Shown here: one piece after another, positions 47,790 to 62,479 of the stretch
Numbering within the stretch: the first letter of the stretch is position 1
Layout: every line of letters begins with the position of its first letter
Made by a program: the position numbers and the translations under genes
Notes under the pieces: model-generated
Databases searched by the model: none
What the model saw: the letters and a program-made list of their open reading frames with translations, nothing else
Told to the model about the DNA's origin: nothing
Source: Allobrachymonas denitrificans DSM 15123
GTDB lineage: Bacteria > Pseudomonadota > Gammaproteobacteria > Burkholderiales > Burkholderiaceae_C
Direction: 5' to 3'
Assembly: GCF_900110225.1 (NCBI RefSeq)
Contig: NZ_FOCW01000001.1
Coordinates: 1,178,001-1,242,000 of the forward strand
DNA: 64,000 nucleotides

Positions 47790-48758
47790 TCAGGGGGCCG
47801 GGCGCAGATGGTTCTGGAACGGATCTTCTGTCTGGAAACGCTGGTACAGCAGCGGTTGTGCCGCAGGCACATGGCCGTTGGCGCATTGCAGGTGCTGGTC
47901 CAGATGGCGTTCGGACGGCTGCAGCAGACGGCGGTAGAACTCGCGGCACATCAGGCGGGCTTCGTTGCCGGGCCAGTCATGGGGCAGCAGTTCTGCGGGG
48001 AGTTCCGGGTCACGCAGCAGCAGGCGGCGGTATTCGTGGATGAGCACCGTGCGCAGCAGGAAGGCGGTTTCGTCCGGAATCACGTCACCCAAGTGCTGGC
48101 GCAACGATTCGATCAGCGGACGGTAACGTGCCACGAACTCGGCGTAGTCGTTGCCCAGCTGCTCCAGGTTCCAGGCGCGCAGCACCATGTCGACATCGCG
48201 CGCCGAATTGCCGAAATGGTTTTCCACGGCGAGCAGCGGCATCAGTTCATGCAGCAATTCGCCCATGCCGTCGGCCATGAGGGCGTCGGAGGCGGCGTCC
48301 AGATCAGCGCTGGGATGGATGAAGCAGTCGGTGCCGAGCAGGCCGAAGCCTTGCCAGAACAGGGCGCGGCGCAGCTGGTCGCGCTGGCGTCCGGCAATGT
48401 CACCCACCACCAGCATCAGGCGCCAGCGGCGATCCCAGACCGGGGTGCTGGAGGCGTAGATGTGGCGGGCGGCATCTTCGATGCGCTGCTGGCCGGCGGG
48501 GGTAAGCAGGTAGTCGGCGCGGCGGCCGTGGGCTTCGGTACGTAGCCAGCCATCCTGGGCCAGACGGAAGACCGTGGTGCGGATCAGGCGTTCGCCGACA
48601 CCCAAAGGCTCCAGCAGGCGGATCAGGCTGCCCAGCCAGATGCGTCCGCCACGCGGATGGATCGCATCACCGAAAGCAGAGATGATGAGCGATCCGGCGC
48701 GGATACGGCGTTGCTGGCTGAAGGCGTCGAGATGGGCCTGAATGAGGGTGGCGGGCAT
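47790..48758 (-). CDS. paaX: Phenylacetate catabolism repressor PaaX
   Basis: GntR-like winged-helix repressor (322 residues; E. coli 316) that in known systems leaves DNA on binding phenylacetyl-CoA. The DNA-binding region spans about 20-90 (GSLIISAFGDAIHPRGG, RTTVFRLAQDGWLRTEAHGRR), and the PaaX central and C-terminal domains follow (FWQGFGLLGTD, IPDETAFLLRTVLIHEYRRLLLRDPELP). It is separated from iclR by 54 bp that contain a perfect TATAAT, so it may have its own promoter. It should control the divergent paaN operon, and possibly the diiron pair. Confidence 0.92.
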   Translation of the reverse strand: MPATLIQAHLDAFSQQRRIRAGSLIISAFGDAIHPRGGRIWLGSLIRLLEPLGVGERLIRTTVFRLAQDGWLRTEAHGRRADYLLTPAGQQRIEDAARHIYASSTPVWDRRWRLMLVVGDIAGRQRDQLRRALFWQGFGLLGTDCFIHPSADLDAASDALMADGMGELLHELMPLLAVENHFGNSARDVDMVLRAWNLEQLGNDYAEFVARYRPLIESLRQHLGDVIPDETAFLLRTVLIHEYRRLLLRDPELPAELLPHDWPGNEARLMCREFYRRLLQPSERHLDQHLQCANGHVPAAQPLLYQRFQTEDPFQNHLRPAP

Positions 48759-48812: not shown

Positions 48813-49649
48813 TTACCCGCCCGGGATCGCGTCGATGTGGTTGAGGCGCGAGGCCTGTGCGTCCGGCTGTGTGGAGCCTAGCTGGCGGGACAGTGCCTGG
48901 GCCGCTTCGCGCAGCGCGTGCATGGCCATGCTGTCTTCACCCAGATCGCTCATGCCGACAATGCCCACAACCACCATCACCATGGTGATTTCGTTGCGGA
49001 AATTGAACACCGGTGCGCCCAGCGCCTGCACGCCGCCGGCAAAGTAATGCTCGCCGATGGCCACGATGCCTTTTTCGCGGATCTCTGCCAGACGCTGCTG
49101 CACATCGGCCATGGTCTGAATGGGCGCGTCAGCGGGCTGGCGGGCGAGTTCGGCCTGGATCAGGGCAGAGGTACGGCGCTCCGGCAGCCAGGCCGAAAAC
49201 ACCAGACCGCTGGCGCTGTTGAGCAGTTCCACGCTCACGCCGGTGACCACGTTGACCGTGATCGGGCGGCGCGGGCGTTCCCAGCGCACGATGACCGGGC
49301 CGTTGGCGCTCCAGACGGCGAGGGCGGTGGTTTCGTTGATCTGGTTGCGCAGGCGCGAGATGGCTTCCAGGCCCAGACGGATGCGGTCGATGCGGTTGAC
49401 GGCGGCCAGACCAATGTTGAGTGCAAAGGGGCCCAGGTCGTAATGCGAGGTGGCCGGGTCCTGGATCACCATGCCGGCGCGGATCAGGCTGACGAGGTAG
49501 CGGTGTGCCTTGGCCGGGGGCATGTCGGCCTGCAGGGCGATATCCTTGAGCATCATCGGCCCCTGGCTGTTGACCAGCACGCGTGCTACTGACAGTCCGA
49601 TTTCCAGCGACTGCACGCCGTTCTTGCTGTCCTTGTCTGGCTGGATCAT
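48813..49649 (-). CDS. IclR-family transcriptional regulator
   Basis: An IclR-type regulator of 278 residues. The winged HTH (LSVARVLVNSQGPMMLKDIALQADMPPAKAHRYLVSLIRAGMV) is followed by the ligand-binding domain (GPFALNIGLAA through about 255). IclR proteins often govern aromatic or acyl-CoA pathways, which suits this locus; the effector is unknown. The ATG at 49649 has AGGAG 9 nt upstream; the frame is open to 49694 but that region is occupied by a terminator hairpin, so the upstream start is unlikely. Confidence 0.88.
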   Translation of the reverse strand: MIQPDKDSKNGVQSLEIGLSVARVLVNSQGPMMLKDIALQADMPPAKAHRYLVSLIRAGMVIQDPATSHYDLGPFALNIGLAAVNRIDRIRLGLEAISRLRNQINETTALAVWSANGPVIVRWERPRRPITVNVVTGVSVELLNSASGLVFSAWLPERRTSALIQAELARQPADAPIQTMADVQQRLAEIREKGIVAIGEHYFAGGVQALGAPVFNFRNEITMVMVVVGIVGMSDLGEDSMAMHALREAAQALSRQLGSTQPDAQASRLNHIDAIPGG

Positions 49650-49668
49650 GAAGTGGCTCCTGACTGGC

Positions 49669-49703
49669 AAAAAAGCGGTGCGGTGCAGACGCACCCCACC
49701 GCT
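49669..49703 (-). terminator. Rho-independent terminator/attenuator before iclR
   Basis: Read on the minus strand, AGCGGTG/CACCGCT and the inner GGTGC/GCACC form a long stem with a 4-nt loop, followed by five to six Ts. It lies after the reductase stop and only about 20 nt before the iclR ATG, so it both ends the diiron/reductase transcript and sits in the iclR leader. Confidence 0.85.
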
Positions 49704-49745: not shown

Positions 49746-50801
49746 TCAGTTGGCCGTGTTCAGCAGGTGGGAGGCATCGGCCACCGTGGGTTGTTGCTGC
49801 GCAAAGAACCCTTCAGTGTAGATCATGCCGTCCTGCGCGCCGAGTGCCTTGACGGCATTCACGCAAGTGGCAACAAACTCCGGGCTGCCGGCTGCGAAGA
49901 TGGTGTGCTTGGACAGGTCGGGGAACAGGCCGGGCAGCACCTCGTTGACGCGACCTTGCAGGAAACCGTCCTTCTGTTCGCGCGTGAGGGTGACCTTGTA
50001 GTCGAAGTTGCGGTGCTTGGTGCGCCACCAGGCCATCATGCCGTGGCCATACACATCGGGTTCGGTACGGGCGGAGAACAGCAGGGTGACCGGCTTGCGG
50101 AACCCGCGGCGCAGGGCGGTTTCGGCCAGCGCCATGATGGGAGCCAGACCGGTTCCGGCTGCCAGGCACAGAATCGGAGTGTCGACCGCCGGGTCGCCGA
50201 TGAAGGTGCCGTAGGGGCCGGAGAGCTTGACGTTGTCGCCGATGGTGAGGGTGTCATGCACCCACTGGCTGGTCGGGCCGTCGTCGGAGCGGGCGATCTG
50301 CAGTGTGAGTTCGCCATCGGGACGCGGGGCGTTGGCGATGGAGAAGGCACGTGCCGGGATGGCATCGTTGCCCGGACCCAGGGTGACATACTGGCCGGGC
50401 CAGTAGCGCAGCGGCTTGCCGACCGGGCGCAGGCGCAGTTCGACCACGCGCGCGGCAACGACGCGCTTGTCGACCACGACGAAGAGGGCGTTTTCGCGCG
50501 GAGGGAACAGCTTGGGCTTGGCGTCTTCCGTGCCCCATTCGATTACCAGTTCGTCGGAAATCGGCTTGGCCATGCACATCAGGCCGAAGCCCTGGCGGCG
50601 GTCTTCCTGCGACAGGGCCATGTCCAGCACCATGCCCTGGTCGAACTGGCCGGACAGGACCTTGACCTTGCACTCGCCACAGGCGCCGGCACGGCAGTTG
50701 TTGGGCAGGGCGAAGCCCGCCTTTTCCAATGACATGAGCACGGTGTCGCCATAGGCGCACTCGACGGATTTGCCGGAAGGCTGCATCACGATGCGGGCCA
50801 T
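49746..50801 (-). CDS. 2Fe-2S/FAD/NAD(P)H oxidoreductase, oxygenase electron-transfer component
   Basis: A 351-residue reductase of the MmoC/BenC/TmoF layout. The N-terminal plant-type ferredoxin has C36, C41, C44 (NCRAGACGEC) and C76 (MCMAKP); the FAD domain has RAFSIANAP (about 150-158); the NAD(P)H domain has the GTGLAPIMA loop and the AAGSPEF segment. This order (ferredoxin first) is opposite to PaaE, where the 2Fe-2S domain is C-terminal. AGGAGA lies 7 nt before the ATG. It follows the diiron gene by 147 bp on the same strand and is its obvious electron donor. Confidence 0.9.
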   Translation of the reverse strand: MARIVMQPSGKSVECAYGDTVLMSLEKAGFALPNNCRAGACGECKVKVLSGQFDQGMVLDMALSQEDRRQGFGLMCMAKPISDELVIEWGTEDAKPKLFPPRENALFVVVDKRVVAARVVELRLRPVGKPLRYWPGQYVTLGPGNDAIPARAFSIANAPRPDGELTLQIARSDDGPTSQWVHDTLTIGDNVKLSGPYGTFIGDPAVDTPILCLAAGTGLAPIMALAETALRRGFRKPVTLLFSARTEPDVYGHGMMAWWRTKHRNFDYKVTLTREQKDGFLQGRVNEVLPGLFPDLSKHTIFAAGSPEFVATCVNAVKALGAQDGMIYTEGFFAQQQPTVADASHLLNTAN

Positions 50802-50881
50802 GTGTGTCTCCTGAATGTTTTCTGGTTATCGTCTGCTTGTGGGGGTTTTCGGGTGCACTCCCAGGGGAAGCGCACCGGGAA

Positions 50882-50929
50882 ACCGCCGTGGGGCGGTAGT
50901 ACAGGCAGGCCGCGCTTGCACACGGCCTG
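50882..50929 (-). promoter_or_regulatory. Two hairpins between the diiron gene and its reductase
   Basis: ACCGCC/GGCGGT (50882-50887 with 50892-50897, loop GGTG-type) and CAGGCCG/CGGCCTG (50906-50912 with 50923-50929). Neither has a T-tract. They lie in the 147-bp gap and could stabilise the upstream oxygenase message or reduce reductase expression. Confidence 0.45.
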
Positions 50930-50948
50930 ACCGGCAATTTTCCGGAAA

Positions 50949-51977
50949 TCAGAACACCGGAATGATGTCTTCCATGTCGATGTCGGACACTTCCTGGCCG
51001 GTGATGCCGACTTCGGGGATGGCGGGGAACGGAATGTTGTAGCGGTCCAGCACACCCTTCAGGTTCAGCATGGCGTTCTTCCAGTTTTCCAGCTTGGCTT
51101 CGTAGGTGGGGATGCCGAAACCGGCCATGCGCGCCACTTCCTCGGCTTCACGCTGGTTGGCGATGAAGTCTTCGGGCAGGTCCCAGAATTCCATCGGGGG
51201 CTCGAACAGCACGGCGGACAGGAACAGGTAGCCGGCGCGGATCTGCTTGGTGACCACGGCCTTGGTTTCCTCGGCGATCTTGGGATAGTCGCGCTCCATC
51301 ACGGCCATGCAGATGGCCATGTGGCGGCCTTCGTCGCGGCCGATGTTCTTGAAGCCTTCCTTGAACACGGCCTCGCGGCTGTTCTCGTACATCTGCTTGA
51401 AGATGGTGGCGGCAGCGATTTCGCCCATCAGGAAGGAGCTGAACAGCACGGCCAGGGAGTACTTCGGCACGGCCTGCTTGTAGCCGGTCCAGTAGCGGGA
51501 GCCGTTGAAGTACAGCCACTTGGTGTTCTTCTGCAGGCGCTTGCCCAGTTCGGTCTTGGGCTCGTAGGTGATGGGGTCGGGATGGCCCAGCAGCTTGGTG
51601 ATGGCCAGGCCGCACATGATTTCGTGGTTCTGCTCGTCGCGCTGGACGGAGAAGAAACACTTGCGCACGGGATCTTCCTCATGCACTTCGTAGGTCTTGA
51701 TCAGGGCTTCGGCGAACACCGGCGGCGCGGAGGCGTCGAACACGGAGAGCAGGGTCCACCAGTAGGCGATGGCTTCGCGCTCTTCCCAGGAGTAGCTGTC
51801 CACGTCCAGCGTGTCCCAGGGCAGTTTTTCGGGTTCCCAGTTCTCGCGCAGGGCGGCTTCCCACACTTCCTGCAGCTTCTTGGTGTGCGATTCCCAGGAC
51901 AGGGGGTACACGTTGGGTTGTTCGATCTCGGGCGGAAATTCCATCTTGTCCGCAAAGCGTTCCTTATGGCTGGCCAT
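50949..51977 (-). CDS. Ferritin-like (R2-like) diiron oxygenase of unknown specificity
   Basis: This 342-residue all-helical protein carries two E...ExxH units: E90, E115, H118 and E186, E216, H219 (segments RDEQNHE and RDEGRHM), the 4-Glu/2-His set of dinuclear-iron oxygenases. The E186-E216 spacing is slightly shorter than in methane monooxygenase-type subunits. It is not PaaA, whose sequence and context (paaABCDE) differ, nor a canonical R2 with its Asp first ligand. AAAAAC-rich AT sequence and GAGGAGA precede the ATG. It is divergent from paaN and followed by a matching reductase, so a two-component monooxygenase acting in or beside the phenylacetate pathway is the best inference. Substrate unknown. 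Confidence 0.8.
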   Translation of the reverse strand: MASHKERFADKMEFPPEIEQPNVYPLSWESHTKKLQEVWEAALRENWEPEKLPWDTLDVDSYSWEEREAIAYWWTLLSVFDASAPPVFAEALIKTYEVHEEDPVRKCFFSVQRDEQNHEIMCGLAITKLLGHPDPITYEPKTELGKRLQKNTKWLYFNGSRYWTGYKQAVPKYSLAVLFSSFLMGEIAAATIFKQMYENSREAVFKEGFKNIGRDEGRHMAICMAVMERDYPKIAEETKAVVTKQIRAGYLFLSAVLFEPPMEFWDLPEDFIANQREAEEVARMAGFGIPTYEAKLENWKNAMLNLKGVLDRYNIPFPAIPEVGITGQEVSDIDMEDIIPVF

Positions 51978-52334
51978 GTCTCATCTCCTCAAGGGTGGTT
52001 GGTACGGTGCAATGCCAGCCTGGACTGGCTGGTCTGGAAAAACTATAACACACGAAAAATAAAAACAATCGAAATGTGTATCACGTTGGTAGAAAACTGG
52101 AGCAATTCGCTCGGTTTTCAGCACATTGAAGAGAACGTGATAATGATCTATCCACATGATTTATCGATAGATTTACGCCATTCTTGCTTCTTTCGGAATG
52201 CATTCCACTAATCGTAAACCCTAGTGTGGTTTGGTGCAATTGATACTATAAAATCCGCTTCAACAACGATTCGTGTAGCACAACAAGTGCCAAACCCGCA
52301 GCGCCAGACAGCTGCTGAACTGGAGACGACAACA
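51978..52334. promoter_or_regulatory. Divergent AT-rich control region between the diiron gene and paaN
   Basis: No gene is seen in these 357 bp. Perfect 9-bp arms TATCACGTT (52079-52087) and AACGTGATA (52134-52142) enclose a second dyad, GAAAAC/GTTTTC with inner GAGC/GCTC (52092-52119). A minus-strand TATAGT (52042-52047) is a likely -10 for the diiron gene; TATAAA at 52247-52252 is a possible -10 for paaN. GATTCGTG (52268-52275) matches the core of the PaaX operator as I recall it, and lies just downstream of that -10, a position suited to repression. Confidence 0.6.
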
Positions 52335-54002
52335 ATGAGCCATCCCCTGTACGAGAAGCACAAGGCCACGCTGGAAGCAGGCCTCAAGGCCTTTGGCGAG
52401 CGCAGCTACTGGTCTGCCTATAACGAGATGCCCAGCCCCAAGGTCTATGGCGAGGATGCTCCGGCTGCCGGCAAGCAGGCGTTTGACGCGCTGCTGGGCA
52501 AGCAGTTCGAGCTCGATCAGCCGGGCAGCAATGGCTGGCAGGGCAGCGAAAAGTCTCCTTACGGCTCTGAACTGAACGTGCAATACCCCGCCTGCGACGT
52601 GGATACGCTGGTGGCGGCTGCCGAGAAGGCGATGGAATCCTGGCAGGCGCTGGGCCTGGAAGGCCGCACCGGTGTCTGTCTGGAAATGCTGGAGCGCCTG
52701 AACAAGCAGAGCTTCGAGATTGCCCATGCGGTGATGCAGACGACCGGCCAGGGCTGGATGATGGCGTTTCAGGCCGGCGGCCCGCACGCGCAGGATCGCG
52801 GCCTCGAGTCCGTAGTGGCGGCGCACCAGGTGCAGATGCTGTCTGCGCCCAACGCGCACTGGGAAAAGCCGCAGGGCAAGAACCCGCCGCTGGTGATGAA
52901 GAAGCACTTCGAGCTGGTCGGCAAGGGCGTGGGCGTGGTGATCGGTTGCGGCACCTTCCCGACCTGGAACACCTACCCGGGCCTGTTTGCTGCTTTGGCA
53001 ACCGGCAACGCCGTGATCGTCAAGCCGCACAGCAACTCCATCCTGCCGGCTGCCATCACCGTGCGTACCATGCGCGAGGTGCTGAAGGAGCAGGGCGTTG
53101 ATCCCAACCTGGTGAGCCTGTGCGTGACCAGCGGCCATGCCGACACGCAGAAGCTGGTGACGCATGCCGGCGTGCGTTCGGTGGACTTCACCGGCGGCAA
53201 CCACTTCGGCCACTGGCTGATCGACAACTGCAAGCAGGCTACCGTGTACGCCGAAATGGCCGGCGTGAACAACGTGGTGATCGACTCCACCGATGCCTAC
53301 AAGGCCATGCTGCGCAATCTGGCATTCACGCTGTCGCTGTATTCCGGCCAGATGTGCACCACTCCGCAGGCGATTCTGGTGCCGGCCGGCGGCATCGAGA
53401 CGGACGAAGGCCACAAGAGCTACGACGATGTCTGCAATGACCTGGCCAAGGCCGTTAGCGGCTTCCTGTCCAAACCCGAAGTGGCGCATGCGGTGCTGGG
53501 CGCGATCCAGTCCGGTGCCACGACCGACCGCATCAACGAAGCGGCGGCCGGTGTGCATGGCCGCGTGATTCTGGCGCCGCAGAAGCTGGAGAACCCCGAG
53601 TTTCCGAATGCCGTGGTCAGCACGCCGGTGCTGGTGGCGGTGGATGCGGCCGACGAGAAGGCCTACATGGAAGAGCGCTTCGGCCCGATCAGCTTTGTGG
53701 TGAAGACGGCGGATACAGCCGCCTCTGTTGCGCTGTCCGAGCGTCTGGTGCGCGAGTGCGGCGCGCTGACGGTGAGCGTGTATTCCACCAGCCGTGACGT
53801 CATCAACGCCATGATCAAGGCGACGCAGCGTTCCAAGGTGGCGCTGTCCATCAACCTGACGGGTGGCGTGTTCGTGAACCAGTCGGCAGCGTTCTCCGAC
53901 TACCACGGCACCGGTGGCAACCCGGGTGCCAACGCTTCCTATACCGATCTGGGCTTTGTGGCCAACCGTTTCGTCGTGGTGCAATACCGCGAGCATGCGT
54001 GA
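52335..54002 (+). CDS. paaN: Phenylacetate-pathway aldehyde dehydrogenase PaaN
   Basis: An ALDH-fold protein of 555 residues. The catalytic cysteine is C341 (YSGQMCTTPQ) and the general base region is YAEMAGVNNVV. It corresponds to the dehydrogenase part of E. coli PaaZ (681 aa), which oxidises the open-chain 3-oxo-5,6-dehydrosuberyl-CoA semialdehyde, but lacks the C-terminal MaoC-type oxepin-CoA hydrolase domain. That hydrolysis must be supplied elsewhere. The ATG at 52335 follows GGAG; the frame is open upstream into the control region. It is first in the operon, 7 bp before paaG. Confidence 0.9.
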   Translation: MSHPLYEKHKATLEAGLKAFGERSYWSAYNEMPSPKVYGEDAPAAGKQAFDALLGKQFELDQPGSNGWQGSEKSPYGSELNVQYPACDVDTLVAAAEKAMESWQALGLEGRTGVCLEMLERLNKQSFEIAHAVMQTTGQGWMMAFQAGGPHAQDRGLESVVAAHQVQMLSAPNAHWEKPQGKNPPLVMKKHFELVGKGVGVVIGCGTFPTWNTYPGLFAALATGNAVIVKPHSNSILPAAITVRTMREVLKEQGVDPNLVSLCVTSGHADTQKLVTHAGVRSVDFTGGNHFGHWLIDNCKQATVYAEMAGVNNVVIDSTDAYKAMLRNLAFTLSLYSGQMCTTPQAILVPAGGIETDEGHKSYDDVCNDLAKAVSGFLSKPEVAHAVLGAIQSGATTDRINEAAAGVHGRVILAPQKLENPEFPNAVVSTPVLVAVDAADEKAYMEERFGPISFVVKTADTAASVALSERLVRECGALTVSVYSTSRDVINAMIKATQRSKVALSINLTGGVFVNQSAAFSDYHGTGGNPGANASYTDLGFVANRFVVVQYREHA

Positions 54003-54009
54003 GGACGGC

Positions 54010-54804
54010 ATGGACTACCAGAACATTCTCTACAGCGTGCAGGACGGCGTCGCCCGCCTGACGCTGAACCGCCCCGACAAGCTCAACAGCTTCACCGGTG
54101 CCATGCATGCGGAAATCCGCCATGCGCTGGACCAGCTGGAGCAGGACGCCAGCGTGCGCGTGCTTCTGCTGACCGGCGCCGGCCGCGGCTTCTGCGCCGG
54201 CCAGGATCTGGCTGACCCGGACATGAATGCCGGCGAAGGCAAGATGGCCGACCTGGGCGCCGTGGTGGAGCGCAACTACCGTCCGCTGATCCTGCGTCTG
54301 CAAAACCTGCGCGTGCCGACCGTGGCTGCCGTGAACGGCATCGCTGCCGGCGCGGGGGCTTCGGTCGCACTGGCCTGCGATCTGGTGATTGCCACGCAGT
54401 CTGCCTCCTTTCTGCAGGCCTTCAGCAAGATCGGTCTGGTGCCGGATACCGGCGGTACCTGGTTCCTGCCGCAACGCGTGGGCATGGCGCGTGCCATGGG
54501 CCTGGCGCTGCTGGCCGAGAAGCTGTCTGCCCAACAGGCGGCCGACTGGGGCCTGATCTGGGCTGCCGTGGCTGACGATGAATTTGCGGCGCACGTCGAC
54601 AAGCTGCTGCAGATGCTGGCCCAGGCACCGACCAAGGCGCTGGTGCGCACGCGTCAGGCCATGCATGCGGCACCCGGCCACACACTGGAGCAGCAGCTGG
54701 CCATGGAGGGCGGCTTCATGCGCGAACTGGGCTGGAGCCACGACTACAACGAAGGTGTGGCTGCCTTCATGGCCAAGCGCGCGCCGCAGTTCAAGGGGGA
54801 ATGA
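54010..54804 (+). CDS. paaG: 1,2-Epoxyphenylacetyl-CoA isomerase
   Basis: Crotonase-family enzyme (264 residues) that turns ring-1,2-epoxyphenylacetyl-CoA into the oxepin and also shifts double bonds later in the pathway. FCAGQDL (oxyanion hole) and D146 in GLVPDTGGTW, the PaaG-type acid in place of the hydratase glutamates, are seen. Its presence implies that an aromatic epoxidase exists in this organism. The stop overlaps an ATG (54801) just ahead of paaH. Confidence 0.92.
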   Translation: MDYQNILYSVQDGVARLTLNRPDKLNSFTGAMHAEIRHALDQLEQDASVRVLLLTGAGRGFCAGQDLADPDMNAGEGKMADLGAVVERNYRPLILRLQNLRVPTVAAVNGIAAGAGASVALACDLVIATQSASFLQAFSKIGLVPDTGGTWFLPQRVGMARAMGLALLAEKLSAQQAADWGLIWAAVADDEFAAHVDKLLQMLAQAPTKALVRTRQAMHAAPGHTLEQQLAMEGGFMRELGWSHDYNEGVAAFMAKRAPQFKGE

Positions 54805-54806
54805 CG

Positions 54807-56333
54807 ATGGCGGCATTGCCTCTGCAGAGGGTGATCGGCGTGGTGGGGACCGGTGCCATGGGCGCCGGCATTGCCCAGGTGGCTGCGGCTGCCGGCCATC
54901 CGGTGCGCCTGTTCGACAATCGCGCCGGTGCGGCCGGGCAGGCCGTGGACGGCATCCGCCAGCAATTCGACAAGCTGGCCGCCAAGGGTAAGCTGTCGCA
55001 GGAGGATGCTGCTGCGGCTTCCGGTCGCCTGACGGCTGTGGAAAGCCTGCAGGAGCTGGCGGATTGCGGTCTGGTCGTGGAAGCCATTGTCGAGAAGCTG
55101 GAAGCCAAGCAGGGCCTGTACAGCGAACTCGAAGGCATCGTGGGGCCGGATTGCATTTTCGGCACCAACACTTCTTCCATTTCCGTGACGGCGATCGGCT
55201 CCGCGCTCAAGCGCCCGCAGCGTCTGGCCGGCATGCACTTCTTCAATCCGGCTCCGCTGATGAAACTGGTGGAGATCGTTTCCGGGCTGGCGACGGATGC
55301 CGCAGTGGCGCAGACCCTGTTCGACACCGCGACTGCCTGGGGCAAGCGAGCCGTGCATGCCAAGTCCACGCCCGGCTTCATCGTGAACCGTGTGGCGCGT
55401 CCGTACTACGCCGAGGCGCTGCGTCTGGTGCAGGAGGGCGCTGCCGATCACGCCACCATCGATGCCGTGATGCGCGATGCCGGTGGCTTCCGCATGGGCC
55501 CTTTCGAGCTGATGGACATGATCGGCCATGACGTGAACTTTGCCGTCACCAGGTCGGTGTGGAGCGCCTACTTCTACGACAAGCGTTTCCAGCCCTCCTT
55601 GCTGCAGCAGGAGCTGGTGGAGGCGGGTTTTCTGGGCCGCAAGAACGGCCGGGGCTTTTTTGACTACGCCGAAGGCGCAGTCCGCCCCGAAGCGCAGGCT
55701 TTTGCAGCCATGCGTGCGCCGGCAAGCGTGGCGATTGTCGGTGAAACACCGGCCGCCGAAGGGCTGGCGCAGCGCCTGCATCTGCAGGGCATCGACTTCT
55801 CGCGCAAGCCGGCCAACGGCGATGGGCGTATTGCCGAGGCGGGTGAGGCAGTGATCTATCTTACGGACGGCCGCACTGCCGCCCGTCGCGCAGCGCAGAA
55901 CGGCATCGAGAACACCGTGCTGATTGATCTGGCGCTGGATTACACCCAGGCCAAGCGCGTCGCGCTCACGGCAGCCCCAAGCACCCGCGAGCAGGCGGTG
56001 CAGGATGCCGTCGGCCTGTTCCAGGCAGCCGGCCTTGTGGTGTCGCCGCTCAAGGACATTCCGGGCCTGGCCGTGATGCGAACCGTGGCCATGCTGGCCA
56101 ACGAAGCCGCCGATGCCGTCAACCAGGGTGTGTGCAGCGCCGGCGACGCCGATGCCGCCATGCAGCTGGGCGTGAACTACCCGCGCGGCCCCTTGCTGTG
56201 GGCAGAGCAGGTTGGCCTGCCGGCGGTGCGCGACACCCTGGCCCATCTCGGAAACATTTACGGCGAGGATCGCTACCGCATTTCCCCGCTGCTGCAGCAA
56301 CGTATCGATGAAGGAAGGAAGTTCCATGAGTAA
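54807..56333 (+). CDS. paaH: 3-Hydroxyadipyl-CoA dehydrogenase
   Basis: NAD-dependent 3-hydroxyacyl-CoA dehydrogenase (508 residues) acting on 3-hydroxyadipyl-CoA. The N-terminal fingerprint is GVVGTGAMGAGIAQ, catalytic H144 lies in MHFFNPAPLMKLVE, and two C-terminal 3HCDH domains follow. I start at 54807, six bases after a GGGGGA ribosome site; the ATG at 54801 overlaps the paaG stop and would sit against that site. The next gene overlaps its end by 8 bp. Confidence 0.92.
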   Translation: MAALPLQRVIGVVGTGAMGAGIAQVAAAAGHPVRLFDNRAGAAGQAVDGIRQQFDKLAAKGKLSQEDAAAASGRLTAVESLQELADCGLVVEAIVEKLEAKQGLYSELEGIVGPDCIFGTNTSSISVTAIGSALKRPQRLAGMHFFNPAPLMKLVEIVSGLATDAAVAQTLFDTATAWGKRAVHAKSTPGFIVNRVARPYYAEALRLVQEGAADHATIDAVMRDAGGFRMGPFELMDMIGHDVNFAVTRSVWSAYFYDKRFQPSLLQQELVEAGFLGRKNGRGFFDYAEGAVRPEAQAFAAMRAPASVAIVGETPAAEGLAQRLHLQGIDFSRKPANGDGRIAEAGEAVIYLTDGRTAARRAAQNGIENTVLIDLALDYTQAKRVALTAAPSTREQAVQDAVGLFQAAGLVVSPLKDIPGLAVMRTVAMLANEAADAVNQGVCSAGDADAAMQLGVNYPRGPLLWAEQVGLPAVRDTLAHLGNIYGEDRYRISPLLQQRIDEGRKFHE

Positions 56334-56778
56334 CAACACGGCCGAGCAGCAGCTCGCACTGGCTGTGGCCGAGGCCATGTGGTCGCGCGACCAGGCGGCT
56401 CAGGCACTGGGCATGGCGATTGTCGAGGTGCGCCCCGGCTACGCCGTGCTGACGATGAAGGTGCGCCCCGACATGGTCAATGGCCACCACATCTGCCATG
56501 GCGGCCTGATTTTCACGCTGGCCGACACCGCCTTTGCCTACGCCTGCAACAGCTACAACCACAACACCGTGGCATCGGCCTGCCATATCGATTTCCTGTC
56601 GCCGGGCAAGGAAGGCGACCTGCTGGAGGCAGAGGCCGTCGAACGCTCACTCTCCGGCCGCACCGGTGTCTACGACATCACCGTGCGCGTGGCTGGCGGC
56701 AAGACCGTGGCGCTGTTCCGCGGCAAGAGTTACCGCATTCAGGGCGAAGTGATCGCCGGGCTGCAACAGGCCGGTTGA
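56326..56778 (+). CDS. paaI: Hydroxyphenylacetyl-CoA thioesterase PaaI
   Basis: Hotdog-fold thioesterase (150 residues) that releases CoA from stalled or wrongly oxidised phenylacetyl-CoA derivatives. The active-site helix HHICHGGLIFTLADTAFAYAC carries D67 and the conserved HGG. An AAGGAAGG site precedes the ATG, which overlaps the paaH 3' end by 8 bp. Confidence 0.9.
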   Translation: MSNNTAEQQLALAVAEAMWSRDQAAQALGMAIVEVRPGYAVLTMKVRPDMVNGHHICHGGLIFTLADTAFAYACNSYNHNTVASACHIDFLSPGKEGDLLEAEAVERSLSGRTGVYDITVRVAGGKTVALFRGKSYRIQGEVIAGLQQAG

Positions 56779-56815: not shown

Positions 56816-58138
56816 ATGACTGTCAAGCAACCCCAACCCGGCGATCTTGAACCGATCGAGACCGCCAGCCGTGACGAAATCGCGGCCCTGCAGTTCCAGC
56901 GTCTGCAGTGGACCGTGCGCCATGCCTACGAGAACGTGCCGCACTACAAGCAGGTGTTCGACGAGGCAGGCGTGCATCCGGACGACCTGAAGACCCTGGC
57001 CGACCTGGCCAAGTTTCCCTTCACCACCAAGAAGGACCTGCGCGACAACTATCCCTTCGGCATGTTTGCCGTGCCGCGCGAGCAGATCACGCGCTTGCAT
57101 GCCTCTTCCGGTACGACGGGCAAGCCGACGGTGGTGGGTTACACCAGGAATGACATCAACAACTGGGCAGATCTGGGTGCGCGTTCCATCCGTGCCGCTG
57201 GTGGCCGTCCGGGCGACATCTGCCATATCTCCTACGGCTACGGCCTGTTTACCGGTGGCTTGGGCGCGCACTATGCGGCCGAGCGCGCCGGCTGTACCGT
57301 GGTGCCCATGTCGGGTGGCCAGACCGAGAAGCAGGTGCAGCTGATCCAGGACTTCAAGCCGGACATCATCATGGTGACGCCGTCCTACTCGCTGGTGATT
57401 GCCGAAGAGTTCGAGAAGATGGGTATCGACCCGGCGGAATGTTCGCTCAAGGTCGGCATCTTCGGTGCCGAGCCGTGGGGCGAGGGCATGCGTGCCGAGA
57501 TCGAGAAGAAGCTGGGTCTGGATGCGGTGGACATCTACGGCCTGTCCGAAGTGATGGGTCCCGGCGTGGCCAGCGAGTGCATCGAGAGCAAGGACGGCCC
57601 GGTGATCTGGGAAGACCATTTCTATCCCGAGATCATCGATCCCGATACCGGCCGCGTACTGCCGGACGGCGAGCTGGGTGAACTGGTGTTCACCTCGCTG
57701 ACCAAGGAAGGCATGCCCGTGATCCGCTACCGCACGCGCGACCTGACGCGCCTGTTGCCGCCCACTTCGCGCTCCTTCCGCCGCATGGGCAAGATCACCG
57801 GCCGTTCCGACGACATGCTGATCATCCGCGGCGTGAACGTGTTCCCAACGCAGATCGAGGAGCAGATCCTGCGCGACAAGCGTCTGGCCGGCAACTACCA
57901 GCTGGTGGTGAGCCGTGACGGCCACATGGACAACCTGGAAGTGCGTTGCGAACTGCAGCGCGATGCTGCCGACCTGCCCGATGCCGATGTGCGAGACATT
58001 GTCAAGCAACTGCAACATCACATCAAGACACTGATCGGGGTCTCGACCAAGATCACCGTGATGCAGCCGGATGGCATTCCGCGCACGCTGACCGGCAAGG
58101 CCGTGCGCATTCTGGACCAGCGTTCCAAGGAAAGGTAA
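56816..58138 (+). CDS. paaK: Phenylacetate-CoA ligase
   Basis: ANL-family ligase (440 residues) that commits phenylacetate to phenylacetyl-CoA, the inducer that releases PaaX. Motifs: SSGTTGKPTVVGYT (P-loop), YGLSEVMGPGVA, and the C-terminal RTLTGKAVRI with the catalytic lysine. GGAGGAGA sits before the ATG. It lies 37 bp after paaI and 6 bp before paaJ. Confidence 0.95.
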   Translation: MTVKQPQPGDLEPIETASRDEIAALQFQRLQWTVRHAYENVPHYKQVFDEAGVHPDDLKTLADLAKFPFTTKKDLRDNYPFGMFAVPREQITRLHASSGTTGKPTVVGYTRNDINNWADLGARSIRAAGGRPGDICHISYGYGLFTGGLGAHYAAERAGCTVVPMSGGQTEKQVQLIQDFKPDIIMVTPSYSLVIAEEFEKMGIDPAECSLKVGIFGAEPWGEGMRAEIEKKLGLDAVDIYGLSEVMGPGVASECIESKDGPVIWEDHFYPEIIDPDTGRVLPDGELGELVFTSLTKEGMPVIRYRTRDLTRLLPPTSRSFRRMGKITGRSDDMLIIRGVNVFPTQIEEQILRDKRLAGNYQLVVSRDGHMDNLEVRCELQRDAADLPDADVRDIVKQLQHHIKTLIGVSTKITVMQPDGIPRTLTGKAVRILDQRSKER

Positions 58139-58144
58139 TCCGCC

Positions 58145-59350
58145 ATGGCACAGGCTTTCATTTGCGACGCCATCCGCACGCCCATCGGGCGTTACGGCGG
58201 GGCACTGGCATCGGTGCGTGCCGACGATCTGGCGGCACTGCCGATCAAGGCGCTGCAGGAGCGCAATCCCGGCGTGGACTGGACGGCAGTGGATGACATC
58301 ATCTACGGCTGCGCCAACCAGGCCGGCGAAGACAACCGCAACGTGGCGCGCATGGCGGGGCTGCTGTCCGGCCTGCCGATCGAGGTGCCGGGCACCACGG
58401 TCAACCGCCTGTGTGGCTCCGGCATGGATGCCGTGGGCCTGGCTGCGCGTACCATCAAGGCGGGCGAGGCCGGCCTAATGATTGCTGGCGGCGTGGAGAG
58501 CATGTCGCGCGCGCCCTTCGTGATGGGCAAGGCGGAAAGCGCCTTCTCGCGCAGCGCGCAGATCTACGACACCACCATCGGCTGGCGTTTTCCCAACCCG
58601 GTACTGAAAAAGCTGTACGACACGCATTCCATGCCGCAGACGGCGGACAACGTGGCGCAGGACTTCAACATCTCCCGCGAAGACCAGGATGCCTTCGCCG
58701 TGCGCTCACAGCAGCGCTGGGCCGCAGCCGATGCAGCAGGGCGTTTCGATGCCGAGCTGATTCCGGTGGCGATTCCGCAGAAGAAGGGCGATCCCAAGAT
58801 GTTCACGCGGGACGAGCACCCGCGCCCGGAAACCACGCTGGACATGCTGGCCAGGCTCAAGGGCGTGAACGGCCCGGACCTGACGGTCACCGCAGGCAAT
58901 GCCTCCGGCGTGAACGACGGCGCCTGCGCGCTGCTGGTGGCGTCTGAAGAAGCCGCAGGCCGTTACGGCCTCAAGCCCATCGCCCGCGTGGTCGGCATGG
59001 CCACCGCCGGCGTAGCGCCGCGCATCATGGGCTTCGGCCCGGCGCCTGCCGTGCGCAAGGTACTCGGCCAGACAGGCCTGAGCCTGGACCAGATGGACGT
59101 GATCGAGCTGAACGAAGCCTTTGCCGCACAGGCGCTGGCCGTGCTGCGCGATCTGGGCCTGCCGGACAACGCCGGCCATGTGAATCCCAACGGCGGTGCC
59201 ATCGCCATCGGCCACCCGCTCGGCATGAGCGGTGCGCGCCTGGTGACCACCGCCGCCTACGAGCTGCAACGACAGGGCGGCCGCTACGCCCTGTGCACCA
59301 TGTGTATCGGAGTGGGGCAAGGCATTGCCCTGATTATCGAACGCGTTTGA
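58145..59350 (+). CDS. paaJ: 3-Oxoadipyl-CoA/3-oxo-5,6-dehydrosuberyl-CoA thiolase
   Basis: Thiolase (401 residues) closing the pathway to acetyl-CoA and succinyl-CoA. Nucleophile C90 in [22 protein letters not shown], and second cysteine in [10 protein letters not shown] are present. PcaF of the beta-ketoadipate pathway is a close paralogue; the operon context favours PaaJ. Confidence 0.93.
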
Positions 59351-59379: not shown

Positions 59380-60621
59380 ATGATGACCAAGCACACCCTC
59401 AAGACCGGCGGCTCGCTGGCAGTTACAGCCCTGATGCTGGCCGGCGCCGCCATGCTCACGGCCTGCAATTCCAAGGAAGCCAGCAAGCCCGCAGAAGGCA
59501 CCAGCGCTGCAGGCGGCGCTCCGGCTGCCACCGGCGGCGATGCCAACGGCCCGATCAAGATCGGCTCCGTCCTGTCCGTGACCGGCCCGGCGTCTTTCCT
59601 GGGTGATCCGGAACTGAAAACCCTGCAGATGTACGTCGAGGACATCAACAAGCAGGGCGGCGTGAACGGCCGCCAGCTGGAGCTGGTGCACTATGACGAC
59701 GGCGGCGACGCCAACAAGGCCAACAGCTTCGGCAAGCGTCTGATCGAGGACGACAAGGTCGACGTGATCGTCGGCGGCACCACCACCGGCTCCACCATGG
59801 CCATCGCTCCGCTGGTCGACAAGGCTGGCGTGCCCATGATCTCGCTGGCCGGCGCCGTGGTGATCACCCAGCCGACGCAGAAGTGGCTGTTCAAGACGCC
59901 GCACACCGACCGCATGGCTGCCGAGAAAGTCTTCGAAGACATGAAGAAGCGCGGCATCACCAAGATCGGCCTGCTGTCCGAGACCAGCGGCTTCGGCCAG
60001 TCCGGCAAGAAGGAAACCGAGGGTGTGGCAGCCAAGTCCGGCATCGAGATCGTGGCCAATGAAACCTATGGTCCCAAGGACACGGACATGAGCGCCCAGC
60101 TCACCAAGATCAAGGGCACGCCGGATGTGCAGGCCGTGCTGATCTTCGGTCTGGGCCAGGGCCCGGCTGTGGCCACCAAGAACTACCGCCAGCTTGACAT
60201 CAAGCAGCCGCTGTACCAGTCGCACGGCGTGGCTTCCAACGAGTTCCTGAAGCTGGCTGGCGACGCTGCCAACGGCGTGCGCATGCCTGCTTCCCCGCAG
60301 CTCGCTCCCGAAGCCCTCAAGGCCGACGACAAGCAGAAGCCCGTGGTCGAGGCTTACAACAATGCCTTCCGCGCCAAGTGGAACCAGGAACCCTCCGCCT
60401 TCGGTGGCCACGCCTATGACGGCCTGCTGATGGCCGTGGAAGCCATCAAGACGGCTGGCGGCACCGACAAGGCCAAGGTGCGTGATGCCATCGAGAACAC
60501 CAAGGGCTTCGTGGGTACCGGTGGCGTGTTCAACATGTCTGCCGAAGACCACAACGGCCTGGACCTGTCCGCATTCAAGATGCTGGAGGTCAAGGACGGC
60601 AAGTGGACGCTGGTCGAGTAA
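59380..60621 (+). CDS. Liv-type ABC transporter substrate-binding lipoprotein
   Basis: A 413-residue periplasmic binding protein of the branched-chain amino acid (type I) class, IGSVLSVTGPASFLGDPELKTLQMYVEDIN and so on. Unusually its signal ends in LTACNS, a lipobox with C29, so it is probably anchored rather than free in the periplasm. An AAGGAGA site lies before tandem ATGs at 59380 and 59383. It follows paaJ by 29 bp and, with the permease and ATPase genes downstream, suggests uptake of phenylacetate or a related aromatic acid. Amino acid transport remains possible. Confidence 0.85.
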   Translation: MMTKHTLKTGGSLAVTALMLAGAAMLTACNSKEASKPAEGTSAAGGAPAATGGDANGPIKIGSVLSVTGPASFLGDPELKTLQMYVEDINKQGGVNGRQLELVHYDDGGDANKANSFGKRLIEDDKVDVIVGGTTTGSTMAIAPLVDKAGVPMISLAGAVVITQPTQKWLFKTPHTDRMAAEKVFEDMKKRGITKIGLLSETSGFGQSGKKETEGVAAKSGIEIVANETYGPKDTDMSAQLTKIKGTPDVQAVLIFGLGQGPAVATKNYRQLDIKQPLYQSHGVASNEFLKLAGDAANGVRMPASPQLAPEALKADDKQKPVVEAYNNAFRAKWNQEPSAFGGHAYDGLLMAVEAIKTAGGTDKAKVRDAIENTKGFVGTGGVFNMSAEDHNGLDLSAFKMLEVKDGKWTLVE

Positions 60622-60686
60622 TCAGCTGATCCCCGTGGGCGCGGCGTGAGTTGCGTCCCTGATCCGGGATCGCAGCAGCGGGGCAG

Positions 60687-60704
60687 GGCACTGGCTGCAG
60701 TGCC
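60687..60704 (+). promoter_or_regulatory. Hairpin between the binding protein and downstream genes
   Basis: GGCACTG and CAGTGCC pair perfectly over 7 bp around a GCTG loop in the 162-bp gap before the crotonase gene. There is no T-run. Such elements commonly stabilise the abundant binding-protein mRNA relative to the permease genes. Confidence 0.4.
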
Positions 60705-60783
60705 TGGCCTCCCGGCTGCGCATCCCCCCGATTTCCGGGCCTGGCGTGTTGCGCGCATGGCCCACCGATTTTCGACAAGAGTT

Positions 60784-61572
60784 ATGTACCAGACCCTTGA
60801 CATCGAGCGGCAGGGCGCTGTCGCCACGCTCTGGATGAACCGTCCGGACGTGTTCAACGCCTTTGACGAACAGCTGATCGCCGATCTGCATGCTGCCTGC
60901 ACCGCACTGGATGCCGATGACAGCGTGCGCATCGTCGTGCTGGCTGGCCGCGGCAAGCATTTCTCGGCCGGCGCCGACCTGAACTGGATGAAGCGCGCCT
61001 CCGGCTACACCGAGGCCGAGAACCGCGCCGATGCGCTGCGTTTTGCCGGCATGCTGCGTGCGCTCTCCGGCATGCGCAAGCCGACCATTGCCCGCGTGCA
61101 AGGCGCTGCGCTGGGCGGCGGCACCGGCCTGACGGCGGCCTGCGACATGGCCATCGCCAGCGAGGACGCCAGCTTTGCCACCTCCGAAGTCAAGTTCGGC
61201 ATCATCCCTGCCGTGATCAGCCCCTATGTGCTGCGTGCCATTGGCCCGCGCCATGCGCTGCGCTATTTCCAGAGCGCCGAACGCATCGGCGCCCGCCGCG
61301 CGCTCGAGATGGGTCTGGTGGGTGAGGTGGTGCCGCTGCAGGATCTGGACGCCGCCGTGCAGAAGCTCGCTGACACGCTGCTGACCTGCGGCCCTGGCGC
61401 ACAGTTCGCGGCCAAACAGCTGGTCGGCGCCGTCAACGCGCGCCCGATCGACGACGCCACTACCGAGGAAACCGCGCGCCGCATCGCGGCCCAGCGCGCC
61501 ACCGAAGAAGCCAAGGATGGCATCACCGCCTTCCTCGACAAACGCCCACCGCAGTGGATGGCGCAAGCCTGA
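60784..61572 (+). CDS. Enoyl-CoA hydratase/isomerase (LiuC-like crotonase)
   Basis: Crotonase (262 residues) with HFSAGADLNWMKR, close to methylglutaconyl-CoA hydratases (LiuC), and the GAALGGGTGLTAACD and SEVKFGIIPAVISPYV segments that carry catalytic glutamates. In this place it could be PaaF (2,3-dehydroadipyl-CoA hydratase), which is otherwise missing from the cluster, or the hydrolase partner lacking from PaaN. The ATG at 60784 has only a weak site; an ATG nine codons earlier (60757) is possible. Confidence 0.82.
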   Translation: MYQTLDIERQGAVATLWMNRPDVFNAFDEQLIADLHAACTALDADDSVRIVVLAGRGKHFSAGADLNWMKRASGYTEAENRADALRFAGMLRALSGMRKPTIARVQGAALGGGTGLTAACDMAIASEDASFATSEVKFGIIPAVISPYVLRAIGPRHALRYFQSAERIGARRALEMGLVGEVVPLQDLDAAVQKLADTLLTCGPGAQFAAKQLVGAVNARPIDDATTEETARRIAAQRATEEAKDGITAFLDKRPPQWMAQA

Positions 61573-61606
61573 ACTGCAGGACCCACCGACCCAAGGGAGA
61601 CCCATC

Positions 61607-62479
61607 ATGGCAGAGTTCCTGCAGTACCTGTTCTCGGGCATCACCGTAGGATCCACCTACGCGCTGGCTGCCCTAGGCTTCACGCTGATCTACAACTCCA
61701 GCAACGTCATCAACTTCGCGCAGGGTGAATTCATCATGCTGGGCGGCATGCTGGCGGTGTATTTCACCAACGCAGGCCTGCCGCTGCCGGTGGCATTCAT
61801 TCTGGCCATCCTGATTCCGGCCATTGTCGGAATCGTGATGGAAAAAGTCACCATCGAACCCGTGAAGGGCGCCGAGACGGTGACGCTGATCATCATCACC
61901 ATCGGCGCTTCGCTGTTCATCCGCGGCCTGATCCAGGTCTGGCTGGGCAAGGGCACCTTCAGCCTGCCGGCCTTCTCTGGCGACAAGCCGATCTACATCC
62001 TGGGCGCCGCCATCCAGCCGCAGAGCCTGTGGGTGCTGGGCGTCACCGCCATCGTGGTAGTGGCCCTGTGGTACTTCTTCAACCGCACGCTGTCCGGCAA
62101 GGCCATGCTGGCCACATCCGTCAACCAAACGGCGGCCCAACTGGTGGGCATCAACACCAGCAAGGTGCTGTTCGTCAGCTTCGCGCTGTCTGCCGCGCTG
62201 GGCGCACTGGGCGGCATCCTGCTGACGCCGGTGACCATGACGTCCTACGACGTCGGCATCATGCTTGGCCTGAAAGGCTTCGTGGCAGCCGTGGTGGGCG
62301 GTCTGGGCAATGGCCTGGGCGCTGTCGTCAGCGGTCTGCTGGTCGGCATCCTGGAATCCATGGGCGCCGGCTACATCTCCTCGGCCTACAAGGACGCGAT
62401 TCCGTTCATCCTGATCCTGCTGGTGCTGTTCTTCATGCCGCGTGGCCTGTTTGGCGGCAAATCTACCGACCGGGTGTAA
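61607..62479 (+). CDS. livH: Branched-chain/aromatic ABC transporter permease LivH-like
   Basis: Inner-membrane permease (290 residues) with about eight hydrophobic segments and family signatures GITVGSTYALAALGFTLIYNSSNVINFAQG at the N-terminus and GLKGFVAAVVGGLGN near residue 225. It pairs with LivM. GGGAGA precedes the ATG; livM starts 3 bp after its stop. Confidence 0.92.
   Translation: MAEFLQYLFSGITVGSTYALAALGFTLIYNSSNVINFAQGEFIMLGGMLAVYFTNAGLPLPVAFILAILIPAIVGIVMEKVTIEPVKGAETVTLIIITIGASLFIRGLIQVWLGKGTFSLPAFSGDKPIYILGAAIQPQSLWVLGVTAIVVVALWYFFNRTLSGKAMLATSVNQTAAQLVGINTSKVLFVSFALSAALGALGGILLTPVTMTSYDVGIMLGLKGFVAAVVGGLGNGLGAVVSGLLVGILESMGAGYISSAYKDAIPFILILLVLFFMPRGLFGGKSTDRV

Follow-up and report, generated by a model that had tools for sequence, protein, structure and literature searches.

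The window analysed here is a stretch of 64,000 nucleotides from the genome of Allobrachymonas denitrificans DSM 15123 (contig NZ_FOCW01000001.1, positions 1,178,001 to 1,242,000). It carries a pair of adjacent genes, for a diiron protein and a reductase, at the head of a cluster of phenylacetate degradation (paa) genes. The pair probably encodes a PaaX-controlled, two-component diiron oxygenase of phenylacetyl-coenzyme A (phenylacetyl-CoA), most likely an epoxidase, which is the sole candidate for this step in some bacteria, including the present one, and occurs beside the known enzyme PaaABCDE in others. What is new is a candidate diiron oxygenase of two components within a pathway that is already known, placed by its sequence outside the PaaA/PaaC family. 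The two genes are:

50949–51977, reverse strand: open reading frame (ORF) for the diiron oxygenase component, 342 amino acids, with a predicted ferritin fold like that of R2 and R2-like ligand-binding oxidase (R2lox); it scores below all Pfam and NCBIfam cut-offs and is assigned from an AlphaFold2 model and conservation, with D81, E115, H118, E186, E216 and H219 as proposed ligands (putative roles).
49746–50801, reverse strand: NAD(P)H oxidoreductase component, 351 amino acids, with the Fer2-FAD-NAD order of a BenC/MmoC-like architecture; 79 of the 80 relatives likewise have it after the diiron gene.

The genes are separated by 147 bp, and a Pfam scan of the reductase finds Fer2 (7–80), FAD_binding_6 (118–200) and NAD_binding_1 (213–313). 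An earlier note on this DNA had described a 342-residue ferritin-like protein and a ferredoxin-first reductase, on one strand and divergent from paaNGHIKJ, with which the ORFs, domains and neighbours agree. No MmoB-like effector was recognised near the pair in the list of ORFs of at least 100 amino acids, a comparison that used no effector or MmoB model. In a scan of 84,980 species genomes, relatives are coded in at least 528 of the 592 stretches listed; the best 80 were kept, and all 80-locus counts refer to these. The pair is conserved over them at 83–92% identity, with the reductase after the diiron gene in 79 (in the 80th, L072, the stretch stops inside the diiron gene), which argues that the pair is not a chance arrangement.

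Phenylacetate genes are the usual neighbours. Matches to PaaG occur in 59 of the 80 stretches, to PaaN in 57, to PaaK in 49, to PaaX in 44 and to PaaA in 21; these counts are lower bounds, because many stretches are short contigs. Under stricter settings one or more paa genes are found in 73 stretches: a core enzyme (PaaG, PaaN, PaaK, PaaH or PaaJ) in 62, PaaX alone in seven, and PaaA or PaaZ, accompanied by PaaX or not, in the remaining four. Two relatives (G111 and G172) share the divergent arrangement of the window, with no PaaA/PaaC match in the genome. An order-level draw of 200 genomes returned the genome of the window, three close relatives and two remote ones, and a class-wide draw of 369 genomes returned that genome only, at E ≤ 1e-10.

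The A. denitrificans genome (2.71 Mb in 21 contigs, 99.99% complete) holds PaaK, PaaG, PaaH, PaaI, PaaJ, PaaN and PaaX, yet it contains no match to PaaA_PaaC (PF05138); PaaB, PaaD and PaaE were not individually searched. Within that scope the earlier description of a cluster lacking paaABCDE extends to the whole genome. As a control, the same search gave matches in 4 of 14 named genomes. Among the 80 pair genomes, a whole-genome search found no real PaaA/PaaC in 36; of the 24 genomes with no mention of a metagenome-assembled genome (MAG) in the title, 11 lack it. Dechloromonas denitrificans and Castellaniella defragrans are examples of species that have the pair and gave no PaaA match, while Zoogloea and Dechloromonas also include isolates with both systems. 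A further draw took 150 genomes from one family, that of G111. The pair is present in 27 of them (the contig-end partial G318 included, the weak 25-bit G405 excluded), all 27 with PaaG above its cut-off, against 56 of the 150 overall (Fisher 1.7e-14); it occurs in 26 of the 46 genomes with both PaaG and PaaN, compared with 1 of the 104 others. Weak PF05138 matches in frames of ∼480–500 amino acids, and short PaaA-like matches (E 1e-19 to 1e-27), were not taken as PaaA in this draw. On that basis 13 of the 27 pair genomes have no PaaA, and since 12 of the 13 are at least 96% complete, its absence is not, as a rule, an assembly gap.

A tree of the pair was built from 79 loci and the window by a quick method without bootstrap and with a midpoint root (L072, with no reductase in its stretch, was left out). 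The presence or absence of PaaA requires 19 parsimony changes on it, a count that missing MAG contigs may raise, with at least 10 on well-supported branches. The label is more clustered than when shuffled (mean 26.5 changes, with 2 of 500 shuffles as low). Because it changes 19 times, either genomes with the pair have gained or lost PaaABCDE on many occasions, or the pair itself has been transferred from genome to genome. As a separate observation, a short, divergent PaaA_PaaC-like protein (∼260–310 amino acids, E 1e-20 to 1e-27) is coded directly beside PaaG in four PaaA-less genomes (G315, G345, G287 and G187), some of the frames having one stop; it is perhaps a third type of epoxidase.

The upstream regions point to control by PaaX. 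In Escherichia coli the PaaX site is given as TGATTC-N27-GAATCA (PMC9493321), and PaaX is described as responsive to phenylacetyl-CoA. Scanning the 360 bp before the diiron gene with the E. coli arms gave more near matches than expected and led to a variant, self-complementary pattern, YGATAC-N27/28-GTATCR, which is present with at most one mismatch in 68 of 79 loci (45 perfect; L080, with less than 200 bp upstream, is outside the count). Dinucleotide shuffles give an expectation of 0.2, which is optimistic because the pattern was refined on the same, often closely related loci. Other spacings from 20 to 35 yield 0–11 loci each. Over the 1.42 Mb of the 80 stretches, 113 of 130 sites fall in the 360-bp upstream regions, which make up 2% of the bases. 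The site is no more than 200 bp from the start in 67 loci, and 45 loci have one more than 250 bp away, toward the divergent gene. The corresponding features of the window are:

52241–52280, no strand: predicted PaaX-operator-like inverted repeat, TGATAC-N28-GTAGCA, on the paaN side of the divergent promoter region between paaN and the diiron gene; the only site with at most one mismatch in the 64-kb window.
52044–52083, no strand: degenerate second operator-like site, TGATAC-N28-GTTATA (read on the diiron strand), ∼70–110 bp before the diiron gene; with three mismatches it is weak alone, but relatives show good conservation at the equivalent place.
47790–48758, reverse strand: PaaX, repressor of phenylacetate genes (TIGR02277, 284.6 bits, cut-off 264.55); present in 44 of the 80 loci.

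The site also stands before pairs that are unlinked to paa enzymes: three in Achromobacter with no paa gene in the stretch, where the paaA of the same genomes has a one-mismatch version, and two in Paraburkholderia where PaaX is coded next to the pair and paa enzymes are not nearby. These unlinked pairs and the dependence on spacing are the stronger parts of the operator evidence. Within the stretches fetched, no site with at most one mismatch was found before paaA of Paraburkholderia, Pseudothauera or Parazoarcus, or upstream of the Pseudothauera and Parazoarcus pairs. By the operator criterion the pair would belong to the PaaX regulon in 68 of 79 loci, with PaaX the likely binding protein. 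The Paraburkholderia loci (L047 and L055) are also of interest in themselves: they combine the pair, a PaaX gene only and the site, the paaA of the same genomes having no site in the stretch fetched, and the pair is perhaps a separately regulated module there.

The diiron protein falls outside the named families of Pfam and NCBIfam. Its best Pfam match is AurF (PF11583; 20.5 bits, E 3e-4, cut-off 29.6), and its best NCBIfam match reaches 21 bits against a cut-off of 90. In the Pfam scan PaaA_PaaC gave no match at E ≤ 1, and neither did the hydroxylase models of bacterial multicomponent monooxygenases. The single sequence matched nothing in the PDB at E ≤ 1, and a profile search there returned noise only (best E 0.15). 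No signal emerged when its profile was compared with those of PaaA and PaaC, a null that is uninformative because the positive control, PaaC against PaaA, was weak too (probability 7.6%). An AlphaFold2 model built from 44 aligned sequences (mean predicted local distance difference test score 79.2) has as its best fold matches R2lox (Z 19.7, root-mean-square deviation 3.0 over 245 residues), ribonucleotide reductase (RNR) R2 (Z 18–19) and the azoxy synthase VlmB (Z 18.5), where rows at most 1 Z apart count as tied. The best Foldseek match stayed above E 0.001 (1.5e-3); the fold assignment relies chiefly on VIA-align. Chains of PaaA or BoxB are absent from the best 50 rows of the fold comparisons, which excludes nothing. 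By this model the protein is in the R2/R2lox ferritin-like fold class, a helical bundle with paired ExxH motifs and carboxylate ligands. It resembles R2lox in fold only, scoring 12 bits with the family model NF006200 against a cut-off of 194. The class includes reported hydroxylases and N-oxygenases.

A putative diiron site can be outlined from conservation. D81, E115, H118, E186, E216 and H219 are invariant in eight diverse and 44 close aligned sequences and are the likely ligand set. E115, H118, E186, E216 and H219 had been proposed before, together with E90; the first five stand, while five of the eight aligned relatives carry S or R at position 90. D81, being invariant where position 90 is variable, probably takes the place of E90 and is the likelier first metal ligand. 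Two remote relatives (∼25% identity) have E at the position of D81, with E (L014) and P (the other) at position 90.

In the proposed mechanism, electrons would pass from NAD(P)H to FAD, to the N-terminal 2Fe-2S cluster of the reductase and on to the diiron site, each step being suggested by family roles. The diiron site would activate O2 and place one oxygen atom on the phenylacetyl-CoA ring at C1–C2. PaaG would then turn the 1,2-epoxide into oxepin-CoA, a hydratase and PaaN would open the ring, and PaaH and PaaJ would follow.

Remote relatives bear on how widely this scheme applies. Of three Variovorax records found, two plasmid pairs (L008 and L009) have ∼52% identity to the window pair and are flanked by CoA-ligase, thiolase and hydratase genes, an ABC transporter and a glycolate-oxidase-like FAD protein; both have a gene of the indolepyruvate:ferredoxin oxidoreductase family nearby, and one also has PaaN above cut-off. 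IorAB is reported to convert phenylpyruvate directly to phenylacetyl-CoA (PMC9765128); given this chemistry and these neighbours, the wider family would be placed where an arylacetyl-CoA ring may need opening. The cluster conserved between L008 and L009, which joins the remote pair to the oxidoreductase, an FAD oxidase, a PaaK-like ligase, hydratases and a thiolase, is possibly an undescribed arylacetyl-CoA ring-opening pathway. On plasmid pVF1 of Vitreoscilla filiformis the pair follows a complete paaABCDE/paaZ cluster, its diiron gene being annotated as ‘hypothetical protein’, and homoprotocatechuate-type genes are also near.

Several results weigh against the pair being a phenylacetyl-CoA epoxidase that stands in for PaaABCDE. 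PaaA/PaaC is present beside the pair in 44 of the 80 genomes (27 + 19 above the PF05138 cut-off, minus G264, at 28.9 bits, and G276, which is short, at 70.7 bits, with fragmented genes such as that of G201 counted as present), and G038 and V. filiformis pVF1 have both. MAGs account for 56 of the 80 genome titles, and the completeness of these 80 is not shown. In seven of the 80 loci the pair has no paa gene in its vicinity, and 11 of the 79 upstream regions depart from the operator pattern by two mismatches (six) or by four to five (five); the pattern, moreover, was refined on these loci, many of them close kin. A relative in Nonomuraea (49%) has no reductase or paa match within 25 kb, and no telling neighbour among the nine ORFs scanned. 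In the family draw, PaaA is absent from 13 of 27 PaaG-positive genomes with the pair versus 11 of 29 without it (n = 56, p 0.59), and from 12 of 26 versus 5 of 20 genomes that have both PaaG and PaaN (p 0.22). When genomes with PaaG and PaaN were split by whether they lack both PaaA and a short PaaA-like gene, the pair was found in 12 of 14 that lack them versus 14 of 32 otherwise (p 0.011), a division in which the short genes were set apart after the data had been seen.

Simple replacement, with the pair commoner where PaaA is missing, is unsupported by the first two of these comparisons. The earlier note had argued that the pair is an alternative because paaABCDE is missing, which is too simple with PaaA/PaaC in 44 of 80 genomes and no significant excess where PaaA is absent. 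It had also suggested looking for the pair with paaG/paaN in genomes without paaA, where the co-occurrence with PaaG and PaaN was borne out but a significant enrichment was not. A full paaABCDE elsewhere in the genome, which it had named, combined with unaffected phenylacetate growth in the absence of the pair, as a point against the idea, was not indicated for A. denitrificans, with no PaaA/PaaC match; the genomes of 44 relatives do hold PaaA/PaaC. One guess is that both enzymes are kept in some genomes for different oxygen affinity or substrate range.

The note had left open whether the pair is a simpler, alternative phenylacetyl-CoA epoxidase or an oxygenase feeding another compound into the pathway. 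The former is now favoured by paa synteny, PaaX-type sites, co-occurrence with PaaG/PaaN and the position of the pair as the only candidate in many genomes. It is unlikely that the pair instead oxygenates another arylacetyl-CoA (such as hydroxy- or methyl-phenylacetyl-CoA) or an inducer-linked aromatic, feeding PaaG/PaaN, with PaaABCE handling phenylacetyl-CoA where present. That would suit the coexistence with PaaA/PaaC, the different ligase/thiolase set and arylpyruvate-type oxidoreductase of the two Variovorax relatives, and the Vitreoscilla pair near a full paa cluster and homoprotocatechuate-type genes. However, it would leave 36 of the 80 genomes, and that of A. denitrificans, with paa genes, often PaaK, PaaG and PaaX-type control, and no epoxidase found, and PaaX is described as answering to phenylacetyl-CoA. 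No other-substrate pathway was evident near some pairs without paa enzymes in family scans of ∼4–10 genes each, which covered part of the neighbours only: the Achromobacter locus L082 has aat, ProQ, a DUF protein and an aldehyde dehydrogenase that reaches no named cut-off, Pseudothauera L087 has a BktB-type thiolase, CobD/CbiB, arginine genes and others, and for L047, L066 and L095 one or few neighbours were scanned.

A peripheral oxygenase, making phenylacetate or a precursor of it from an amine, an alcohol, a styrene-like or other compound, with the paa genes acting afterwards, is quite improbable. Peripheral genes can share the PaaX regulon, but the genomes without paaA would be left without a known ring oxygenation step, and the usual neighbours are paaN and paaG (57 and 59 of the 80 loci). 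Least credible is a protein that oxygenates no small molecule, such as an oxidase of the R2lox kind, a protein that handles oxygen or peroxide, or a safety enzyme of the pathway that deoxygenates the epoxide, for which the R2lox proteins as best fold matches and a hemerythrin-like sequence conserved in 40 of the 80 stretches would speak, while the reductase dedicated to it in 79 of the 80 loci and the retention of the pair without PaaA argue for substrate turnover.

Around the pair, the window contains the following further genes of the cluster:

52335–54002, forward strand: PaaN, aldehyde dehydrogenase family, ring-opening step by its NCBI naming (TIGR02288, 851.5 bits, cut-off 578.75).
53998–54804, forward strand: PaaG, 1,2-epoxyphenylacetyl-CoA isomerase (TIGR02280, 378.2 bits, cut-off 345.15).
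54801–56333, forward strand: PaaH, 3-hydroxyacyl-CoA dehydrogenase (TIGR02279, 671.7 bits, cut-off 669.4).
56326–56778, forward strand: PaaI thioesterase (TIGR02286, 169.8 bits, cut-off 118.9).
56816–58138, forward strand: PaaK phenylacetate-CoA ligase (TIGR02155, 722.2 bits, cut-off 646.3).
58145–59350, forward strand: 3-oxoadipyl-CoA thiolase, PaaJ/PcaF (TIGR02430, 718.8 bits, cut-off 597).
59380–62479, forward strand: genes of this cluster with likely uptake and hydratase roles, namely a substrate-binding protein (59380–60621), an enoyl-CoA hydratase family protein (60733–61572) and a LivH-type permease (61604–62479).
48813–49694, reverse strand: IclR-family regulator (PF01614/PF09339); a similar gene is found in 26 of the 80 loci, some at only 32–33% identity.

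The start codons within 59380–62479 were picked by the analyst, and the names of the substrate-binding protein and the permease come from sequence likeness. In the relatives' 80 stretches, these genes have matches in 44 (substrate-binding protein), 47 (LivH) and 17 (hydratase). One MaoC-type hydratase domain is coded elsewhere in the genome and is a candidate for oxepin hydrolysis. The PaaX gene is located beyond the IclR gene, downstream of the pair; the IclR regulator between them stays under the cut-offs of named families (best BhcR, 82 bits, cut-off 350). Just past the end of the window, a hemerythrin domain and a LivF-type ABC ATPase are coded in one ORF (L096:6158–7522, ∼64157–65521 on the scale of the window), and its transporter lies downstream of the paa genes. 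The hemerythrin part is the one with similar sequence in 40 of the relatives' stretches, and an oxygen-binding protein adjoining an oxygenase cluster is curious.

A search of the open-access literature, with subscription journals mostly outside it, found no description of the pair and no phenylacetate growth test in a paaA-less strain that has it. A 2026 survey (PMC13186573) proposes PaaA and PaaC as robust markers, keeps only ligases co-located with PaaABCDE, and mentions some configurations without PaaABCDE. On balance, and with somewhat less assurance than for the function itself, we lean towards the pair being a second phenylacetyl-CoA epoxidase of separate evolutionary origin. This R2-like diiron enzyme, coded by two genes, would take the place of PaaABCDE in dozens of genomes, most of them betaproteobacterial, and the markers paaA/paaC would miss these organisms; where both enzymes occur, they perhaps serve different oxygen levels. 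If this is true, the marker proposal of PMC13186573 would need qualifying. It would also account for paa clusters in which no epoxidase can be recognised, and a compact R2-like enzyme would solve a hard reaction in a new way.

Epoxidation of the aromatic ring of CoA esters is known for PaaABCE and BoxAB. The phenylacetyl-CoA 1,2-epoxidase PaaABC(D)E likewise combines a diiron oxygenase with a 2Fe-2S/FAD/NAD(P)H reductase, and the same step and PaaX-type control are proposed for the pair, which would be its counterpart with no sequence kinship detected. The pair has one catalytic protein, whereas the known enzyme has PaaA, PaaB and PaaC; its reductase has Fer2 first and scores 115.5 bits with the PaaE model (TIGR02160, cut-off 420.8), whereas Fer2 is C-terminal in PaaE. 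Together with the lack of a PF05138 match, this agrees with the earlier view that neither protein resembles PaaABCE. BoxAB, the benzoyl-CoA 2,3-epoxidase, is also a two-component diiron epoxidase acting on an aryl-CoA ester (PMC5489048). BoxB is longer, however, and has a weak PF05138 match (frames of ∼480–500 amino acids, taken as probable BoxB), and the reductase of the pair reaches 26.8 bits with the BoxA model against 459.2. That reductase shares the Fer2-FAD-NAD architecture of BenC (138.6 bits) and MmoC (119 bits), but is far under their cut-offs of 430 and 500, and its partner matches no Rieske or multicomponent-monooxygenase model. The AurF/VlmB-type N-oxygenases resemble the diiron protein through the weak AurF match and the fold of VlmB; AurF differs in that the match is below cut-off and in having an extra His where the pair has I212. 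R2lox and RNR R2 share the predicted fold across residues 19–326 (Z 18–19.7) and the likely ligand pattern Asp/Glu, ExxH, Glu, ExxH. They differ in having 9–14% identity to the diiron protein in structural alignments, and the pair has a dedicated reductase and a paa context.

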